From NCBI GenBank assembly GCA_002813285.1, contig PHTZ01000001.1, positions 2,913,501-2,977,500 of the forward strand: a DNA stretch of 64,000 nt. Direction: 5' to 3'. The notes below the pieces were generated by a model. The model saw only the letters and a list, made by a program, of their open reading frames with translations. It made no database searches and was not told the DNA's origin. The translations under genes were made by a program, and so were the position numbers. Shown here one piece after another: positions 12,842 to 28,194 of the stretch (positions are counted from its first letter, which is position 1; every line of letters begins with the position of its first letter). The stretch comes from Flavobacteriaceae bacterium MAR_2009_75. GTDB taxonomy: Bacteria; Bacteroidota; Bacteroidia; Flavobacteriales; Flavobacteriaceae.

Positions 12842-13283
12842 TTGGTCGTGGTCTTTTTGATTACAAATTGTTAATGGTTAGTATGCAAATTAAATTTAAG
12901 CATTGATTAGGTTAATTATTGTGCTTTAAAATTTATATCGGGGGATATTCAAAGGTGAAAAGTAGTGGTAACCTCATTAAAATAAGCAATTACTAGACGA
13001 AATACATAAATATCATTTGTACTACAAAAATAGCTTATTGGGGTAAGAATTAAAATGGAATCTAGTTGAGAATACTAAACAAAAGAAAAATCACCGATTT
13101 GATAAATTACAGAACTTGAAATTGCGCAATTGTCCAAAAATTATGATTAATTTAATTAAATCGCATAAATCTGCATTTTTTGACGAAAAAACTTGAAAAT
13201 CACTTGATTTTTCAAAATCGGAGAGAAAAATCATTTGTTAATAAAAAGTTAATTTCTAAGAGTGTCCATTCCTGATTTTCGTC

Positions 13284-13299
13284 ATTATTTCGAAATAAT
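13284..13299. promoter_or_regulatory. 16-bp perfect palindrome, candidate operator
   Basis: ATTATTTCGAAATAAT is a perfect inverted repeat between the divergent promoters of the polysaccharide locus, about 100 bp upstream of the promoter-like pair at 13399-13426. This geometry would suit a dimeric repressor or activator; no binding protein is identified. Confidence 0.35.
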
Positions 13300-13398
13300 A
13301 GGCCTTTTGTTTAACATATTCTTATCGCTTTAAGGGGTGAAATTATGTTTTATTCAACATTCAAATTTCTAGTTATTTATGTGCCGATGGGCATTCGG

Positions 13399-13426
13399 TT
13401 TGTCAACTTTAATTATGCTAAATTTG
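13399..13426 (+). promoter_or_regulatory. Bacteroidota-type promoter for the core polysaccharide operon
   Basis: TTTG at 13399-13402 and TAAATTTG at 13419-13426 match the Bacteroidota -33 (TTTG) and -7 (TAnnTTTG) elements, with a spacing a few bases shorter than the usual 19-21. Transcription would start near 13433, leaving a leader of over 200 nt before the initiating transferase. Confidence 0.4.
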
Positions 13427-13652
13427 GCTCGCTATAAGATGAAGATTTTCAAAGTCGGCATCTTTATGAGCGACAGTTTTTTCGACGGAATGATGGGTTT
13501 TAATTTGAAAGCCGACGATAGGCAATAGAGAAAAACAAAGAACTGATTGAAATTAATGTTGCACCTAGTTTCCCCCTCCTCCGGTGCTTTGCGAAAGAGA
13601 GCTACGCAGGTGGTTTTTTTTAATGCTGTACGAGCAGCTTAAAATGTATGTA

Positions 13653-15002
13653 ATGAGGTTAAAAGGGTCGTCTTTAATAATACCGATAGCAATAGCCATA
13701 CACTTGATGATTGTGAATGGCACCTTGCTGCTATTGACCCCAGAAACTTATCTGCAGGGGCTCAACGCCTTGTACTACAATTTTTCTTGGTTGTTGATAA
13801 CCAATGCGCTCAATTTCTACCCTACCAAAAGAAAAGAGAATTTTTTCACCAACATTCATAAGATGTTGAACCTCTATACGCTGTTCGGGCTAAGTTATTT
13901 TGCCATTTTCGGTTTGGGTGCGACCAAGGTTTCGGTGATATTTCATATAAAGATATTGCTTGTTATTTTCTTGCTTTTGACCATCTACCGCATACTCTTT
14001 TATTGGTCGATTAGAAGATACCGTTTCAGGGGGGGCAACTTTGTTAATGTACTGGCCATTGGTCGAGATAAAAACCTAAAAAAGATAAGAAGGGTTTTCG
14101 ATGACCCGTATTTGGGGTATCGCTATAAGGGCTTTTTCGATGACAGCCCCTCGAATAGCCCTACCTATTTGGGTGAAATTTCAAACTGCTACGACTATAT
14201 TATTAAAAATCAGATTGATGAGGTGTATTGTCTGGCTTCTAAATTCTCGCAAGATGAACTTCAGAAGTTGATTAATTTTGCCGATAACAATTTGATCAAA
14301 CTTAAAATTATACCTGACAATAAAGATGTGTTTACTAGGGCGATGAGCCTCGAGATGTTCGATGCGATCCCTGTATTGAACCTTCGTAGGGTGCCTTTGG
14401 ATATGGATTATGCCCGAATCGTAAAACGTATGTTCGATCTGGTCTTTTCTTCAATCGTTATCGTAGGTGTACTCTCTTGGTTGGTGCCCTTGATGTTCGT
14501 GCTTATCAAAGCAGAGTCGCCTGGCCCTTTGTTCTTTAAGCAGAAGAGGCACGGTTTTAAAAAAAGGGTGTTTTGGTGCTATAAGTTCAGGTCGATGGCC
14601 AAAAATTCGGAATCCGATTCTAAGATGGCGACCAAAAATGATATGCGAATTACCAAAATCGGTAAGTTCATCAGAAAAACAAGTATCGACGAATTGCCTC
14701 AGTTTATCAATGTGTTCTTGGGCGAAATGAGCGTAGTCGGGCCGCGACCGCATATGGAACTGCATACCGAAGGCTATCAAGCATCGGTTGACAAGTACTT
14801 GGTACGGCATTTTGTAAAGCCGGGTATTACCGGTTTGGCACAGATTAGGGGCTATAGGGGCGAAGTAGAAAATAAGAGTGATATACTTAACCGTATTCGG
14901 CTAGATGTGCTCTATATCGAGAAATGGACCCTCTCCTTAGATTTGCGAATTATTTATAGTACTATTTATAATGTTTTTGCGGGGGAAGCTAAAGCCTATT
15001 GA
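13653..15002 (+). CDS. Polyprenyl-phosphate sugar phosphotransferase (initiating glycosyltransferase, WcaJ-type), copy 1
   Basis: Starts polymer synthesis by moving a sugar-1-phosphate onto undecaprenyl phosphate. The N-terminal half has four hydrophobic helices and a Rossmann-like domain (VLAIGRDKNLKKIRRVF); the C-terminal catalytic domain contains KRMFDLVFS, GPLFFKQKRHG, CYKFRSM, VVGPRPH and PGITGLAQIRGYRGE. The open frame extends up to a GTG at 13584, but alignment with the paralogue at 26839-28194 (MKTLKNSDLIIP against MRLKGSSLIIP) favours ATG 13653, giving 449 residues against 451. ATG 13623 or 13644 are alternatives. The stop overlaps the start of the NusG-like gene. Confidence 0.9.
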   Translation: MRLKGSSLIIPIAIAIHLMIVNGTLLLLTPETYLQGLNALYYNFSWLLITNALNFYPTKRKENFFTNIHKMLNLYTLFGLSYFAIFGLGATKVSVIFHIKILLVIFLLLTIYRILFYWSIRRYRFRGGNFVNVLAIGRDKNLKKIRRVFDDPYLGYRYKGFFDDSPSNSPTYLGEISNCYDYIIKNQIDEVYCLASKFSQDELQKLINFADNNLIKLKIIPDNKDVFTRAMSLEMFDAIPVLNLRRVPLDMDYARIVKRMFDLVFSSIVIVGVLSWLVPLMFVLIKAESPGPLFFKQKRHGFKKRVFWCYKFRSMAKNSESDSKMATKNDMRITKIGKFIRKTSIDELPQFINVFLGEMSVVGPRPHMELHTEGYQASVDKYLVRHFVKPGITGLAQIRGYRGEVENKSDILNRIRLDVLYIEKWTLSLDLRIIYSTIYNVFAGEAKAY

Positions 15003-15481
15003 TGATGGAACAATGGTATGTATTACAGGTAAGACCGGGCTATGAAAAAAAGGTGGCCGAGAAGTTGAAGAACTTAAAAGTGGAAGTGTATTGCCCGTTG
15101 ATAAAGGAGGTGCGAATATGGAGCGACCGTAAAAAAACGATAGAGACCCCATTGATCAAATCGTATGTGTTTATCAGGTGTGAAGAACAAGAAAGAACTA
15201 TCGCTTTTTCGGTACCCGGAGTGGTGAGGTATCTGTTTTGGTTGGGAAAACCGGCCAAGGTACGCGATGAAGAGATTAGGGTGCTCAAAGATTGGATGGA
15301 AAATGATACCTTCGATGCCATCGCATGTTCTAAGTTGCGACCGGGAGCCCATACGACCATTCGCAAGGGGTTATGGAAAGATCAAGATGCCATAGTTCGT
15401 CATTTGGGTCGTACAAGGGTTTCATTAGTTTTGGAAGATTTGGGGATTGTCGTCAATGCCAAACTGAAAGATGTTGTATGA
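15002..15481 (+). CDS. NusG-like (UpxY/RfaH family) transcription antiterminator
   Basis: A NusG paralogue of 159 residues: the N-terminal NGN domain runs from WYVLQVRPGYEKKVAEKL through YVFIRC to VPGVVRYLFW, and the C-terminal KOW-like segment includes RPGAHTTIRKGLWKDQDAIV and SLVLEDLGIVV. Bacteroides UpxY proteins of this type let RNA polymerase read through their own capsule operon. The reading frame could begin at TTG 14999, but ATG 15002, overlapping the preceding stop by one base, is the natural start. An intrinsic terminator lies about 60 bp after the stop, and the flippase, polymerase and glycosyltransferase genes follow it, so antitermination of this operon is the likely job. Confidence 0.85.
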   Translation: MMEQWYVLQVRPGYEKKVAEKLKNLKVEVYCPLIKEVRIWSDRKKTIETPLIKSYVFIRCEEQERTIAFSVPGVVRYLFWLGKPAKVRDEEIRVLKDWMENDTFDAIACSKLRPGAHTTIRKGLWKDQDAIVRHLGRTRVSLVLEDLGIVVNAKLKDVV

Positions 15482-15539
15482 GAAAGGAAGTGAAAAATGT
15501 AACCGGCATCGCCACAGTGTTTTAATAATAGATAGCGTA

Positions 15540-15578
15540 CGGAAATTTTCTTTTTCAGGAAAGTTTCCGATTTTTTTT
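15540..15578 (+). terminator. Intrinsic terminator between the nusG-like and wecG-like genes
   Basis: An 11-bp stem (15540-15550 with 15559-15569, one G-U pair) closes an 8-nt loop and is followed by eight T residues (15571-15578). It would separate the first two core genes from the rest of the operon unless transcription is made processive, as by the NusG-like protein encoded just upstream. Confidence 0.75.
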
Positions 15579-15587
15579 GGTCTGAAT

Positions 15588-15663
15588 CGGGGTTTAAATC
15601 GTAGTTAGATTGCCCTGCCGTTTGTGTGTCTTTTGTGACAGGCAACGGCGGAGCCGTACCCCG
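15588..15663 (+). promoter_or_regulatory. Competing hairpins in the leader of the wecG-like gene
   Basis: AACGGC at 15644-15649 can pair with GCCGTT at 15617-15622 (stem extended by a wobble and a C-G pair), or ACGGC (15645-15649) can pair with GCCGT at 15653-15657 over a GGA loop. The two folds exclude each other. CGGGGT (15588-15593) and ACCCCG (15658-15663) can enclose both. This resembles an attenuator or an RNA target, but the function is an inference. Confidence 0.4.
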
Positions 15664-15728
15664 TCTGAATCAAAAAAAGACAAAATAGATAGCGTTTACG
15701 ATAACAAATAATGTTTTTAAAAGTGTAG

Positions 15729-16478
15729 ATGGCAATAGATGAGACAAATGTAATGGGCTATGAAGTGTTCAGCGGAAACCTGAATAAGGTAGATTGGTCT
15801 GCGCAAAAGTTGATCGTAAATACCATCAACCAATATTCCTATTGCATCGCCGAAGAAGATGGGGCTTTTAAAAAAGCGCTTAGGGCTTCCGATGTTTTGT
15901 TACCCGATGGGGTAGGTATCGTATGGGCCGCCAAATGGCTAAAAGGTGAAAAATTAACGAAGATTGCCGGGGCCGATTTGCACGAACATTTATTGGGTTA
16001 TTTACAACATACCCAAGGCCATTGTTTTTATATGGGGTCTTCTGTACAGGTGTTGGAAAAAATAAAGAAGCGAGTTGCCAACGACTACCCCAATGTGAAA
16101 GTGGGTACCTATTCGCCTCCCTATAAAACGGTGTTCAGCCCTGCCGAGAATGTCGAGATCGTGAATGCCATCAATGGCTTTGGCCCAGATGTGGTTTTTG
16201 TGGGTATGACTGCCCCCAAACAAGAGAAGTGGGTATACGATAACCAACAATTGATCGACCGGGGAATCGTTTGTTCCATTGGTGCCGTATTCGATTTTTA
16301 TGCCGGTACCGTAGAACGGCCAAGTCAGGTATGGCAAAAAATGGGATTGGAATGGCTCGGTCGCTTGCTCAAGGAACCCAAGCGTATGTGGAAGCGTTAT
16401 ATTTATTACGGGGCTGTTTTTGGCTATCGTTTGATAAATTATCGAAAATCAAAACCAAAAAGAAATCAACCTGCTTAA
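15729..16478 (+). CDS. WecG/TagA/CpsF-family glycosyltransferase
   Basis: The 249-residue protein shows the family signatures LLPDGVGIVWAAKWL, KIAGADL, FVGMTAPKQEKWV and the terminal AVFDFYAGTVERPSQVWQKMGLEWLGRLLKEPKR. GT26 enzymes add the second sugar to the undecaprenyl-pyrophosphate-linked primer. It is the first gene after the intrinsic terminator and structured leader, followed 48 bp later by the flippase gene. Donor sugar (for example ManNAc or a uronic acid) cannot be inferred. Confidence 0.9.
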   Translation: MAIDETNVMGYEVFSGNLNKVDWSAQKLIVNTINQYSYCIAEEDGAFKKALRASDVLLPDGVGIVWAAKWLKGEKLTKIAGADLHEHLLGYLQHTQGHCFYMGSSVQVLEKIKKRVANDYPNVKVGTYSPPYKTVFSPAENVEIVNAINGFGPDVVFVGMTAPKQEKWVYDNQQLIDRGIVCSIGAVFDFYAGTVERPSQVWQKMGLEWLGRLLKEPKRMWKRYIYYGAVFGYRLINYRKSKPKRNQPA

Positions 16479-16526
16479 GTTGTTGTTGATTAAATCGCTG
16501 CGGTAGAGCAAGCAAAATAGAAATAA

Positions 16527-18056
16527 ATGTCTACAGCCCAAAGGGTCATTAAAAATACCGGTTTTCTCTATGCCAAGATGGCGATAACGATGTTTATCAG
16601 CCTCTATACGACCCGTTTGGTATTAAATGCACTGGGGGCTTCCGACTTTGGTATTTTCAATGTGGTCGGTGGGGCCATAGCCATGTTGGGTTTTTTACAT
16701 GCCGCCATGTCGAGTGCCACCCAACGTTTTATGTCCTTTTACGAGGGCAAGGGCGATACGGAAAAACAGAAATATATTTTTAATGTAAGTACTGTACTGC
16801 ATTTTGGCATTGCTGTATTATTGATAGTGGTATTGTTGATTGCGGGCTACTTCTTTTTTAATGGTATTCTGAACATTCCGCCTGATCGAGTGTTCGCAGC
16901 CAAGGTCATTTATGGGGCTTTGATCTTGAGTACGGCCTTTACCGTTCTGAGTGTACCTTATGAAGCAGTTTTGAATGCCCATGAGAATATGCTGTATTAT
17001 AGCATAGTGGGTGTTATAGAGTCGATACTGAAATTAACGGTAGCCTTAATTATTATTACTTATGCCGGTGATAAATTGGTATTGTACGGTATTCTTATGG
17101 CGGTAATACCCTTTGTAATCCGTACGATTATGCAGGTATACTGTCATAAAAAGTATGAAGAATGTGTGATTGCTCCCAAACGTTATTTTGAAAAGGGTCT
17201 GATGAAAGAAATGACCTCCTTTGCGGGGTGGAGTTTTTTAGGTACTGCTAGTAGTATGACTACCCAATACGGTCAAGGTCTTGTTCTCAATAGCTTTTTT
17301 GGAACGGTTTTAAATGCCGCTTTGGGTATTGCCAACCAAATATCAGGTCAATTAATGGTTTTTTCCAATAACATGCTTAAAGCCGTTAACCCGATCATCG
17401 TAAAAACCGAAGGTTTCGGTGATAGACAGAAAATGCTAAAGATGTCGATGGTTACTAGTAAAATGTCCGTTTACATGGCAGCTTTTTTTATGATTCCCTT
17501 TATGCTTGAGACTCCGTACATACTAGATGTTTGGTTAAAAGAAATACCTGATTGGGCTATTTTATTTGTACGGCTGCAATTGTTGCGAATTTTGATAGAG
17601 CAACTTACGCACCCCCTTATTACTAGCATAAGTGCTCAAGGTGACTACAAGCATTTTTCAATTGCCCTAAGTGCCGCCAACATAGCCCCCTTGTTTATCA
17701 CTTGGTTTTTGTTTCATTATGGTTATCCTCCATATTTTCTTTATATCTCATGGATTTTTATGTGGGGTATAGTTAAGGGTGGGGTAATATTATTTTATGC
17801 CAATAGAAACTGTGGATTATCAATTTTAGAATTTGGCAAAAAGGTAGTTTCACCTACTTTTTTTACATGTTTGATTATGGCAATTGTGGGACTATTTCCG
17901 ATATTCTTCTTAGAATATGGTTTCGTAAGGGTTTTTATAGTTTGTACTTTGACTTCATTATCTTTTATGTTGTTACAGTATTTAATATTTATGGATGAAT
18001 TTGAAAAACGTTCGTTGAAGAATCTGATTGTGTTAATTAAAAGAAGAATATTATAG
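16527..18056 (+). CDS. Wzx-like lipid-linked oligosaccharide flippase (polysaccharide biosynthesis/MATE-like family)
   Basis: An integral membrane protein of 509 residues with about 12-14 predicted helices. The N-terminal LYTTRLVLNALGASDFGIFNVVGG segment is typical of Bacteroidota O-antigen/capsule flippases. It should move the undecaprenyl-pyrophosphate-linked repeat unit across the inner membrane for polymerisation. It lies between the WecG-type transferase and the Wzy-like polymerase, the standard Wzx/Wzy-pathway arrangement. Confidence 0.88.
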   Translation: MSTAQRVIKNTGFLYAKMAITMFISLYTTRLVLNALGASDFGIFNVVGGAIAMLGFLHAAMSSATQRFMSFYEGKGDTEKQKYIFNVSTVLHFGIAVLLIVVLLIAGYFFFNGILNIPPDRVFAAKVIYGALILSTAFTVLSVPYEAVLNAHENMLYYSIVGVIESILKLTVALIIITYAGDKLVLYGILMAVIPFVIRTIMQVYCHKKYEECVIAPKRYFEKGLMKEMTSFAGWSFLGTASSMTTQYGQGLVLNSFFGTVLNAALGIANQISGQLMVFSNNMLKAVNPIIVKTEGFGDRQKMLKMSMVTSKMSVYMAAFFMIPFMLETPYILDVWLKEIPDWAILFVRLQLLRILIEQLTHPLITSISAQGDYKHFSIALSAANIAPLFITWFLFHYGYPPYFLYISWIFMWGIVKGGVILFYANRNCGLSILEFGKKVVSPTFFTCLIMAIVGLFPIFFLEYGFVRVFIVCTLTSLSFMLLQYLIFMDEFEKRSLKNLIVLIKRRIL

Positions 18057-26838: not shown

Positions 26839-28194
26839 CTAATAGGCTTTCTCTTCGCCTCTTAGTGCATTGCAAACGGTAAGAAAAATAATCTTTATAT
26901 CAAGCCTCAGCGACCATTTTTCTACATAGAAAATATCCAGCTTTGTACGGTTGAGAATATCGGCGAGTTGTACTATTTCACCTCTGTAGCCCTTAATTTG
27001 AGCGAGACCGGTTATACCCGGTTTTACGAAATGCCTGACCAAATACTTGTTTACTGTGGTTTCATAATCTTCAGTATGTAGCTCCATATGGGGCCGTGGC
27101 CCCACCACGCTCATATCTCCTAAAAAAACATTGATAAATTGGGGCAACTCATCAATGCTTGTTTTTCTTATGAACTTACCGACTTTCGTAATTCTATGAT
27201 CATTCTTGGTGGCCATTTTTAAATTTGCATTGTCTGAAAGATGCATCGATCTAAATTTGTAGCACCAAAATATTCTTCGTTTAAAACCATGTCGTTTTTG
27301 TTTGAAAAATAAGGGTCCTCGAGATTCATAATTGATGAGTGCGTATAGGAGTGGGGTGAGCCATGACAATACCAAAACTATAACCAGCGAAGAGAAGAGA
27401 AGATCAAAAATACGTTTGGCAACGCGACCATATTCAGTATCTAGAGGAACCTTTCGAAGGTTGAGTACAGGTACTGCTCCAAAATTCTCTATGGTCATTG
27501 ATCTTGAGAAAATATCTTTGTTATCCGGTATTATTTTTATTCGAATGAGATTATTATCGGCAAAATCGATTAGGTTCTTTAATTCTCTATGGTTGAACTT
27601 TGAAGCAGTGCAGTATACTTCGTCGATATCATTTTCGAGTAAGTAAAGAAAGCAGTCAAGTACAGGGCCCAAATAGGTTTTACTCTTTGTTTTTTTGTCA
27701 TCAAAATAGCCCATATACCGATAGCCCAAGTCGGGTTCATCAAACAAGGCCCTTACCTTTTTCAGGTTTTTGTCACGACCGATGACTACCACTTTTACCG
27801 AATTGCCCCCCAATTTTCTATAATTTCTTCGAAGTGCGTAAAATATGATGCGGTATAAGGTAAGCGATGCACACAGTAGTAGGTATACCAAAAATTGATA
27901 GCTCAGCGACTCATATATTTTACCTGTGATGCCAAACAAGGCAAAGTAGGCCAGACCATAGATCAGGTACAGCTGTAGCATTTTATGTACGTTGGTGATG
28001 AACATTTCATTTCTATCGGTAGGGTAGAAATTGAGTCCGTAGGTAATCAACAACCACGAAATATTATAGTGTAGTATGTGATAGGGGTTGAGGTAGGTAG
28101 ATGGTGTTAATACAAATAATACACCGTTTAATATGCTGAGATGAACCAATATAGATATTGGTATAATCAAATCAGAATTCTTTAGTGTTTTCAT
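26839..28194 (-). CDS. Polyprenyl-phosphate sugar phosphotransferase (initiating glycosyltransferase, WcaJ-type), copy 2
   Basis: The 451-residue protein has the same domain order as the copy at 13653-15002: four N-terminal helices, a Rossmann-like segment (VVVIGRDKNLKKVRALF) and a catalytic domain with KRIFDLLFS, GPLFFKQKRHG, KFRSM, VVGPRPH and PGITGLAQIKGYRGE. The catalytic halves are nearly colinear and most residues match, so this is a recent paralogue. It converges on the wzc-like gene with a 38-bp gap. A short GCCTA-A-TAGGC palindrome at its stop (26837-26847) may help end transcription. Two initiating enzymes may use different sugars or serve two polymers. Confidence 0.9.
   Translation of the reverse strand: MKTLKNSDLIIPISILVHLSILNGVLFVLTPSTYLNPYHILHYNISWLLITYGLNFYPTDRNEMFITNVHKMLQLYLIYGLAYFALFGITGKIYESLSYQFLVYLLLCASLTLYRIIFYALRRNYRKLGGNSVKVVVIGRDKNLKKVRALFDEPDLGYRYMGYFDDKKTKSKTYLGPVLDCFLYLLENDIDEVYCTASKFNHRELKNLIDFADNNLIRIKIIPDNKDIFSRSMTIENFGAVPVLNLRKVPLDTEYGRVAKRIFDLLFSSLVIVLVLSWLTPLLYALINYESRGPLFFKQKRHGFKRRIFWCYKFRSMHLSDNANLKMATKNDHRITKVGKFIRKTSIDELPQFINVFLGDMSVVGPRPHMELHTEDYETTVNKYLVRHFVKPGITGLAQIKGYRGEIVQLADILNRTKLDIFYVEKWSLRLDIKIIFLTVCNALRGEEKAY

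Follow-up and report, generated by a model that had tools for sequence, protein, structure and literature searches.

The window analysed here, 64,000 nucleotides of the genome of Flavobacteriaceae bacterium MAR_2009_75, contains a capsule or exopolysaccharide locus, as judged from the Pfam assignments of the genes surrounding a NusG paralogue on the + strand (15002-15481; all coordinates are positions in the window). The initial annotation had called this gene UpxY-type, and the protein indeed belongs to that family: it scores 117.1 bits against the NCBIfam model antiterm_UpxY (NF033644; cut-off 100) and carries a Pfam NusG domain (75.2 bits). It falls below the cut-offs of the NCBIfam models for RfaH, LoaP and NusG, with 67.2 bits against the RfaH model TIGR01955 (cut-off 144.5) and 43.3 bits against the LoaP model (cut-off 125). 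No other protein encoded in the genome exceeds the antiterm_UpxY cut-off, and one of the two weaker matches is, by context, the housekeeping NusG. Immediately before upxY on the same strand lies a wcaJ-like gene for an undecaprenyl-phosphate sugar phosphotransferase (13617-15002; Pfam Bac_transf, 1.2e-62; WcaJ_sugtrans, 406.7 bits, just below the cut-off of 410.75), whose stop codon shares one base with the upxY ATG. A second wcaJ-like gene, on the opposite strand, lies at the other end of the cluster (26839-28194). Beyond upxY, a wecG/tagA-like glycosyltransferase gene starting at 15729 heads an 11-kb set of + strand genes that extends to 26800 and encodes a MatE-like flippase, a putative polymerase, glycosyltransferases, an acetyltransferase and a Wzz/Wzc-like protein. 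These are assigned from their ORFs, with Pfam support for five genes and no Pfam match for the putative polymerase. The UpxY-family protein presumably acts on these adjoining flippase, polymerase and glycosyltransferase genes.

In Bacteroides the leader precedes upxY (passages of PMC7819879), whereas upxY in the window follows the wcaJ-like gene and is not the first gene of an operon with a leader upstream. This second position in the operon had been considered unusual, but it recurs in related genomes: in 7 of 29 related loci a wcaJ-like gene ends no more than about 80 nt ahead of upxY.

The non-coding stretch between upxY and the wecG-like gene (15482-15728) contains the features to which the initial annotation had drawn attention. 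An intrinsic-terminator-like hairpin is located at 15539-15578 on the + strand, and its run of eight T residues (15571-15578) is as described, although the stem (15540-15569) has 13 pairs rather than 11. A terminator scan of 20 kb returned 21 such sites compared with 18.5 in shuffled sequence, so that a single match means little by itself. Two mutually overlapping hairpins follow: GCCGTT (15617-15622) can pair with AACGGC (15644-15649), giving an alternative RNA hairpin at 15617-15649 on the + strand, and ACGGC (15645-15649) can pair with GCCGT (15653-15657), so that the two share positions 15645-15649. Identical 12-bp direct repeats, AATAGATAGCGT, are also present as reported, at 15527-15538 and 15684-15695. 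The + strand of the window has no further copy, and when the 250-nt stretch was shuffled 500 times with dinucleotides preserved, a direct repeat of this length arose in 3 shuffles, which makes chance an unlikely explanation. A sigma-70 scan of the + strand lists no promoter between the terminator and the element described below. The best Bacteroidota-type promoter match of the window, a perfect TTTG-N19-TAnnTTTG at 15403-15433 (9 of 10 positions in the near copy of the locus described below), was set aside; it lies inside the 3' end of upxY and hardly exceeds what shuffled sequences yield.

Comparison with related genomes separates the conserved parts of this stretch from the local ones. The corresponding stretch of Pseudozobellia sp. 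WGM2 (L005, same genus), the near copy, differs at 1 of 247 positions, compared with 23 of 480 in upxY and 23 of 750 in wecG. The stretch is therefore more constrained than the adjoining genes. The wcaJ-like gene differs at 23 of 1,386 positions. Its own long non-coding leader (13001-13616), which ends in a T-run adjoining the start codon, is well conserved too and differs at 9 of 616. In the more distant G011, whose UpxY is 64% identical, just two pieces stay alike: the terminator-like hairpin, with an altered stem, and about 40 nt around the element. The 12-bp repeats are not kept in G011, and they were dropped as part of a mechanism. No common upstream arm for the first competing hairpin was found in the listed flanks of other element sites, and both this hairpin and the repeats look like local features. 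Across 33 loci in which the element follows upxY, a terminator-like hairpin lies between the upxY stop codon and the element in 9, including the window and its near copy, which places the terminator outside the general module. In the window the terminator precedes the element and no promoter is recognised between them, a point against the loading-site reading proposed below. The terminator may divide wcaJ-upxY from the long operon, which would then start at a site that the scans do not recognise, or it may be leaky.

The element itself, TGTGAC-N7-GGCGGAGCCGTA, is located on the + strand at 15634-15658, within the former competing hairpins, and was first noticed when the sequence behind upxY homologues was read in other genomes. 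It consists of an upstream box TGTGAC (15634-15639; consensus TGkGAC, from pattern and matrix sites) and a 12-nt core GGCGGAGCCGTA (15647-15658) with a GC-GNA-GC hairpin centre and a conserved T at core position 11 (15657). When a loose pattern, TG[TG]GA[CT]-N5-8-GGCGNAGC, was run on 74 UpxY protein matches and their flanks from the family (with the window itself standing for G000 and L005 for G227, and some loci truncated at contig ends), it was found on the upxY strand in 34 of the 74 loci and on the opposite strand in none. Thirty of the 74 loci had been inspected before the pattern was fixed; in the other 44, which had not been read by eye beforehand, it was found in 16. Twenty-six of the 34 sites are 31-345 nt after the upxY stop codon, seven are 59-341 nt before the start codon and one is 2 kb before the gene. 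Four bases beyond the pattern are conserved without being demanded by it: a C (29 of 34), a purine (33 of 34), a T (34 of 34) and a G (24 of 34).

A position-weight matrix built from these 34 sites, at a threshold of 20 bits, recovered 48 sites (49 with rounding) in 47 of the 74 loci, compared with two on the reverse strand and one in the reversed control. Overall, the element follows upxY in 33 loci, precedes it in 12 and is not nearby in 29. Of the 27 loci without a matrix site at 20 bits, G208 and G066 cluster with housekeeping NusG. The element is absent from the clade that is sister to the window's UpxY (G036, G207, G173, G049 and G140). In the clade of G049, G207, G036 and G140 a promoter-like sequence of the type TTTG-N19-TTCCTTTG was noticed by eye after upxY (L077, L078, L085 and L088). 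Within the window, the element is the only UpxY-associated matrix site at 10 bits or more in all 64 kb.

The element is linked to UpxY genome by genome. Whole genomes were searched with the strict pattern TGTGACN{6,7}GGCGNAGCCRT, which gave 22 sites in 20 of 299 genomes of the family, with none in the reversed control, and all 20 are among the 69 genomes that encode a UpxY-like protein (E up to 0.001). In the class set it gave 20 sites in 17 of 395 genomes, with one in the reversed control (G446), and all 17 are among the 136 with a UpxY-like protein. In the union of the two sets, which have nine genomes in common, the strict pattern is present in 35 of 201 UpxY-positive and 0 of 484 UpxY-negative genomes (Fisher, 2.4e-20), where the UpxY-positive set includes some weak matches and, in the family, two that are housekeeping NusG-like. 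Applied to 68 class loci (from 150 matches, mostly from other families, two belonging to the window's family), the family-trained matrix found 41 sites in the forward and one in the reverse orientation, with none in the reversed control; 41 of these 68 loci come mostly from genomes without the strict pattern, and the other 27 came with the class search. A few of the class-locus sites are 0.6-2.2 kb from the upxY gene.

A covariance model of 47 distinct elements, applied at E up to 0.05 with stricter filters, which lose weak matches, matched 62 of the 299 family genomes, namely 58 of the 69 UpxY-positive and 4 of the 230 others. All matches in the four UpxY-negative genomes are within long ORFs, compared with none of the 16 distant matches in UpxY-positive genomes, a set from which the distant match G016:C185:896-924 was left out. 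The association does not depend on the training set: 24 UpxY-positive genomes contributed nothing to it, and 13 of these have a match, against 4 of 230 (Fisher, 2.3e-12). On the UpxY tree each deep branch, NusG-like rows aside, has element-bearing loci, and the element labels require 18 changes compared with 31.8 in shuffles. In the window's own genome the element is the single match of both the strict pattern and the covariance model, and since it is unique there the predicted regulon in that genome is one operon.

The genes behind the elements are predominantly those of polysaccharide synthesis. Where the element follows upxY, a sugar-nucleotide or polysaccharide gene comes first in 21 of 31 loci, counting ORFs of at least 110 aa and judging by Pfam and reading (the 33 such loci minus one that ends at a contig end and minus the near copy WGM2). 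The same holds for elements far from any upxY gene. The six distant strict-pattern sites are all just before polysaccharide clusters, as read from translated ORFs (two are near copies and belong to one genus), and the first ORF after the distant covariance-model sites belongs to a sugar or polysaccharide family in 10 of 16, so that polysaccharide genes come after 16 of the 22 distant copies. The other six first ORFs encode a methyltransferase (followed by glycosyltransferase-like ORFs), an asparagine synthase, an adenylation-domain protein, a monooxygenase-like protein, an AAA ATPase and a secreted protein. Because distant elements precede polysaccharide genes, UpxY proteins of this flavobacterial family are, like RfaH, probably trans-acting regulators in some genomes.

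The core can pair as GGC-GNA-GCC, and d(GCGNAGC) is an unusually stable mini-hairpin. Across the 70 sites of the family, of which 48 are at upxY loci and 22 are distant, the loop is GAA, GGA or GTA and pairing is kept at positions 2:8 and 3:7 in all 70. Pair 3:7 is C-G throughout, pair 2:8 is G-C in 68 and A-T in two, and pair 1:9 is G-C in 54, A-T in eight, G-T in three, T-G in one and unpaired in four; the paired counts at 1:9 or 2:8 were reached by 0 of 2,000 shuffles. Some compensatory pairing is thus present. The two A-T cases at 2:8 come from the covariance model, which favours paired variants by construction, and six A-T cases at 1:9 are from matrix sites at upxY loci, which have no pairing bias. 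In the training alignment one of the three pairs varies, and the count of double-sided changes is unremarkable, being reached by 366 of 500 shuffles; other covariation measures are high. The 39 class sites mostly have G-T at pair 1:9, for which the shuffles give no support (1,397 of 2,000). DNA folding gives -1.7 kcal/mol for the window core and as little as -0.2 to -0.3 kcal/mol for some variants.

The core resembles ops, the E. coli site of RfaH. E. coli ops is a 12-mer, GGCGGTAGCGTG, with the pause TG at positions 11-12 and a hairpin (passages of PMC5995543), the latter formed by pairs G2:C9 and C3:G8 closed by G4:A7, with G1 in the first upstream base pair (passages of PMC11001881). The window core has the same length of 12 nt, the GG start, the T at position 11 and a small hairpin, and 8 of its 12 bases are identical to ops (9 of 12 in the best variant, GGCGGAGCCGTG). 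Both elements are located in the 5' regions of long surface-polysaccharide operons and are also found at distant operons. Positions 11-12 of the window core are TA rather than TG, T11 being conserved in 34 of 34 and G12 in 24 of 34 sites. Within two mismatches, ops is absent at the element and has two chance-level matches elsewhere in the window. The element differs from ops in three further respects. Its loop is GNA, three bases and thus one fewer than GGTA, with the stem at 2:8 and 3:7; it has the extra TGkGAC box 6-7 nt before the core; and its presumed regulator, from a different phylum, is of the UpxY family and is usually encoded beside it. RfaH reads loop bases G5 and T6, according to the passages on E. 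coli ops. The family sites lack the loop T6 that RfaH recognises, and since the loop is one base shorter RfaH-type recognition of G5 and T6 cannot apply as such. RfaH touches upstream DNA through R40 at the tip of a loop (passages of PMC11001881), and by sequence alignment this tip corresponds to the UpxY signature WSDRKK (residues 40-45), which is 83-97% conserved per residue in 72 proteins. We therefore suggest that this part of UpxY reads the TGkGAC box.

We propose, from the sequence comparisons above, that 15634-15658 is an ops-type loading site of the adjoining UpxY antiterminator, used in the form of non-template DNA, and we hold this reading with good confidence. Polymerase would reach the site by transcribing through upxY, or it would have started beyond the terminator, and it would pause near 15657. 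The 12-nt core would then be exposed as non-template DNA and fold into the small hairpin with a GNA loop, while the TGTGAC box, 18-23 bp behind the RNA 3' end, would lie in the upstream duplex DNA. UpxY would bind the paused complex via both parts and stay on the polymerase, which would then withstand pausing and premature termination along the 11 kb from wecG to wzc.

The initial annotation had proposed that the block gates the flippase, polymerase and glycosyltransferase genes by UpxY-driven read-through of the terminator at 15539-15578, with the later hairpins switching the read-through. That UpxY lies beside these genes, with a strongly conserved block between, stands. Terminator gating is not supported, and we consider it scarcely credible, even though a terminator-like hairpin is kept in both WGM2 and G011. 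The only loading-type element found in the window begins 55 nt after the T-run, so that polymerase has already passed the terminator by the time UpxY would load, and the protein cannot influence it. Moreover, the low frequency of a terminator between upxY and the element in other loci and the lack of a common competing arm in the listed flanks of other sites argue against a switch, and the second hairpin is better read as that of the loading site.

The element could alternatively be the operator of an ordinary DNA-binding polysaccharide regulator, tied to UpxY by neighbourhood alone, a reading in keeping with its position before polysaccharide genes, also far from upxY. It is, however, very unlikely, given that the presence of the element tracks UpxY genome by genome, that its core is a hairpin with some compensation, and that it keeps to the upxY strand (34 to 0 with the loose pattern, 48 to 2 with the matrix) where operators need not keep strand. 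A role as RNA, with UpxY binding the nascent hairpin and a UGUGAC box outside the polymerase in the manner of LoaP, deserves more weight but is still improbable. Conservation of pairing does not separate DNA from RNA, and LoaP, also a NusG paralogue with a leader hairpin, binds that hairpin (dfn) as RNA with no discernible pause in the passages of PMC12691694. Against this, the core resembles the pause-type ops in its 12-nt length, its GG start and its conserved T11, the signature of UpxY aligns to the RfaH loop that touches upstream DNA, and a bridging contact of UpxY with the upstream duplex is cited in passages of PMC12691694. The non-template DNA loading site remains the reading that we prefer.

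A DNA loading site would extend what is known of UpxY rather than introduce its recruitment. In Bacteroides, UpxY is reportedly recruited to paused polymerase via non-template and upstream duplex DNA, with RNA hairpins helping (Saba et al. 2024, Nat Commun 15:10862), and its leader sites are said to have been described by Chatzidaki-Livanis (2009). Recruitment to paused polymerase is thus reportedly established there, and the present element would be a variant signal. Each Bacteroides UpxY serves its own operon, with UpxZ partners (passages of PMC7593976), whereas in this family most sites come after upxY and some are far from it. The passages of PMC7593976 and PMC7819879 name no recruitment sequence for UpxY, and the element is not described in the listed titles and abstract openings of literature on UpxY (ops, recruitment and leader; since 2021). 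No paper was found on RfaH and ops in Flavobacter. Three core variants searched as literal text were found only in papers on other subjects. The published Bacteroides work may nevertheless already contain a counterpart of the element. At gathering thresholds Rfam assigns nothing in the window, and there are unrelated weak matches around the site and in 18 loci. JUMPstart contains ops. Like the present element, JUMPstart is a leader element of polysaccharide genes (passages of PMC2864571), but its Rfam model (RF01707) does not match 13000-16600 of the window at E up to 5, nor any of the 18 loci at E up to 1.

More generally, Bacteroidota may have an ops of their own, made of two parts: a non-template hairpin with only a minimal GNA loop and, having taken over specificity from the loop, an upstream-duplex TGkGAC box read by the WSDRKK tip, with flavobacterial UpxY acting in trans, like RfaH, on several polysaccharide operons and perhaps on non-ribosomal-peptide-like clusters in two genomes; we regard this wider proposal as evenly poised. 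RfaH and ops are the one well-studied pair of a specialised NusG and a DNA signal (abstract of PMC12691694). An ops-like architecture with another loop, in another branch of NusG paralogues and in many Bacteroidota families, would allow the readouts of the hairpin and of the upstream duplex to be separated by mutation, and the element predicts which polysaccharide operons each UpxY would control. It also bears on a question raised for E. coli in passages of PMC11001881, namely what is recruited by ops-like hairpins whose loop bases differ.

A distant element precedes an AMP-binding (adenylation) gene in G195 and a monooxygenase-like gene with a large ORF in G179 (L247:1000-6000 and L253:900-6000, respectively), and some UpxY proteins may also serve peptide-synthesis clusters in these two genomes. 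The class genome G446 has four UpxY-like matches (loci including L195, L196 and L197) and an element at L195 only, 0.8 kb after the gene; it may use locus-specific sites, as Bacteroides does. Finally, exact matches to a strict form of the element occur in two viral contigs (L255:2828-2851 and L256:12181-12205), the second of which is inside an ORF, with a sugar-epimerase-like ORF next to it, and may be due to chance.
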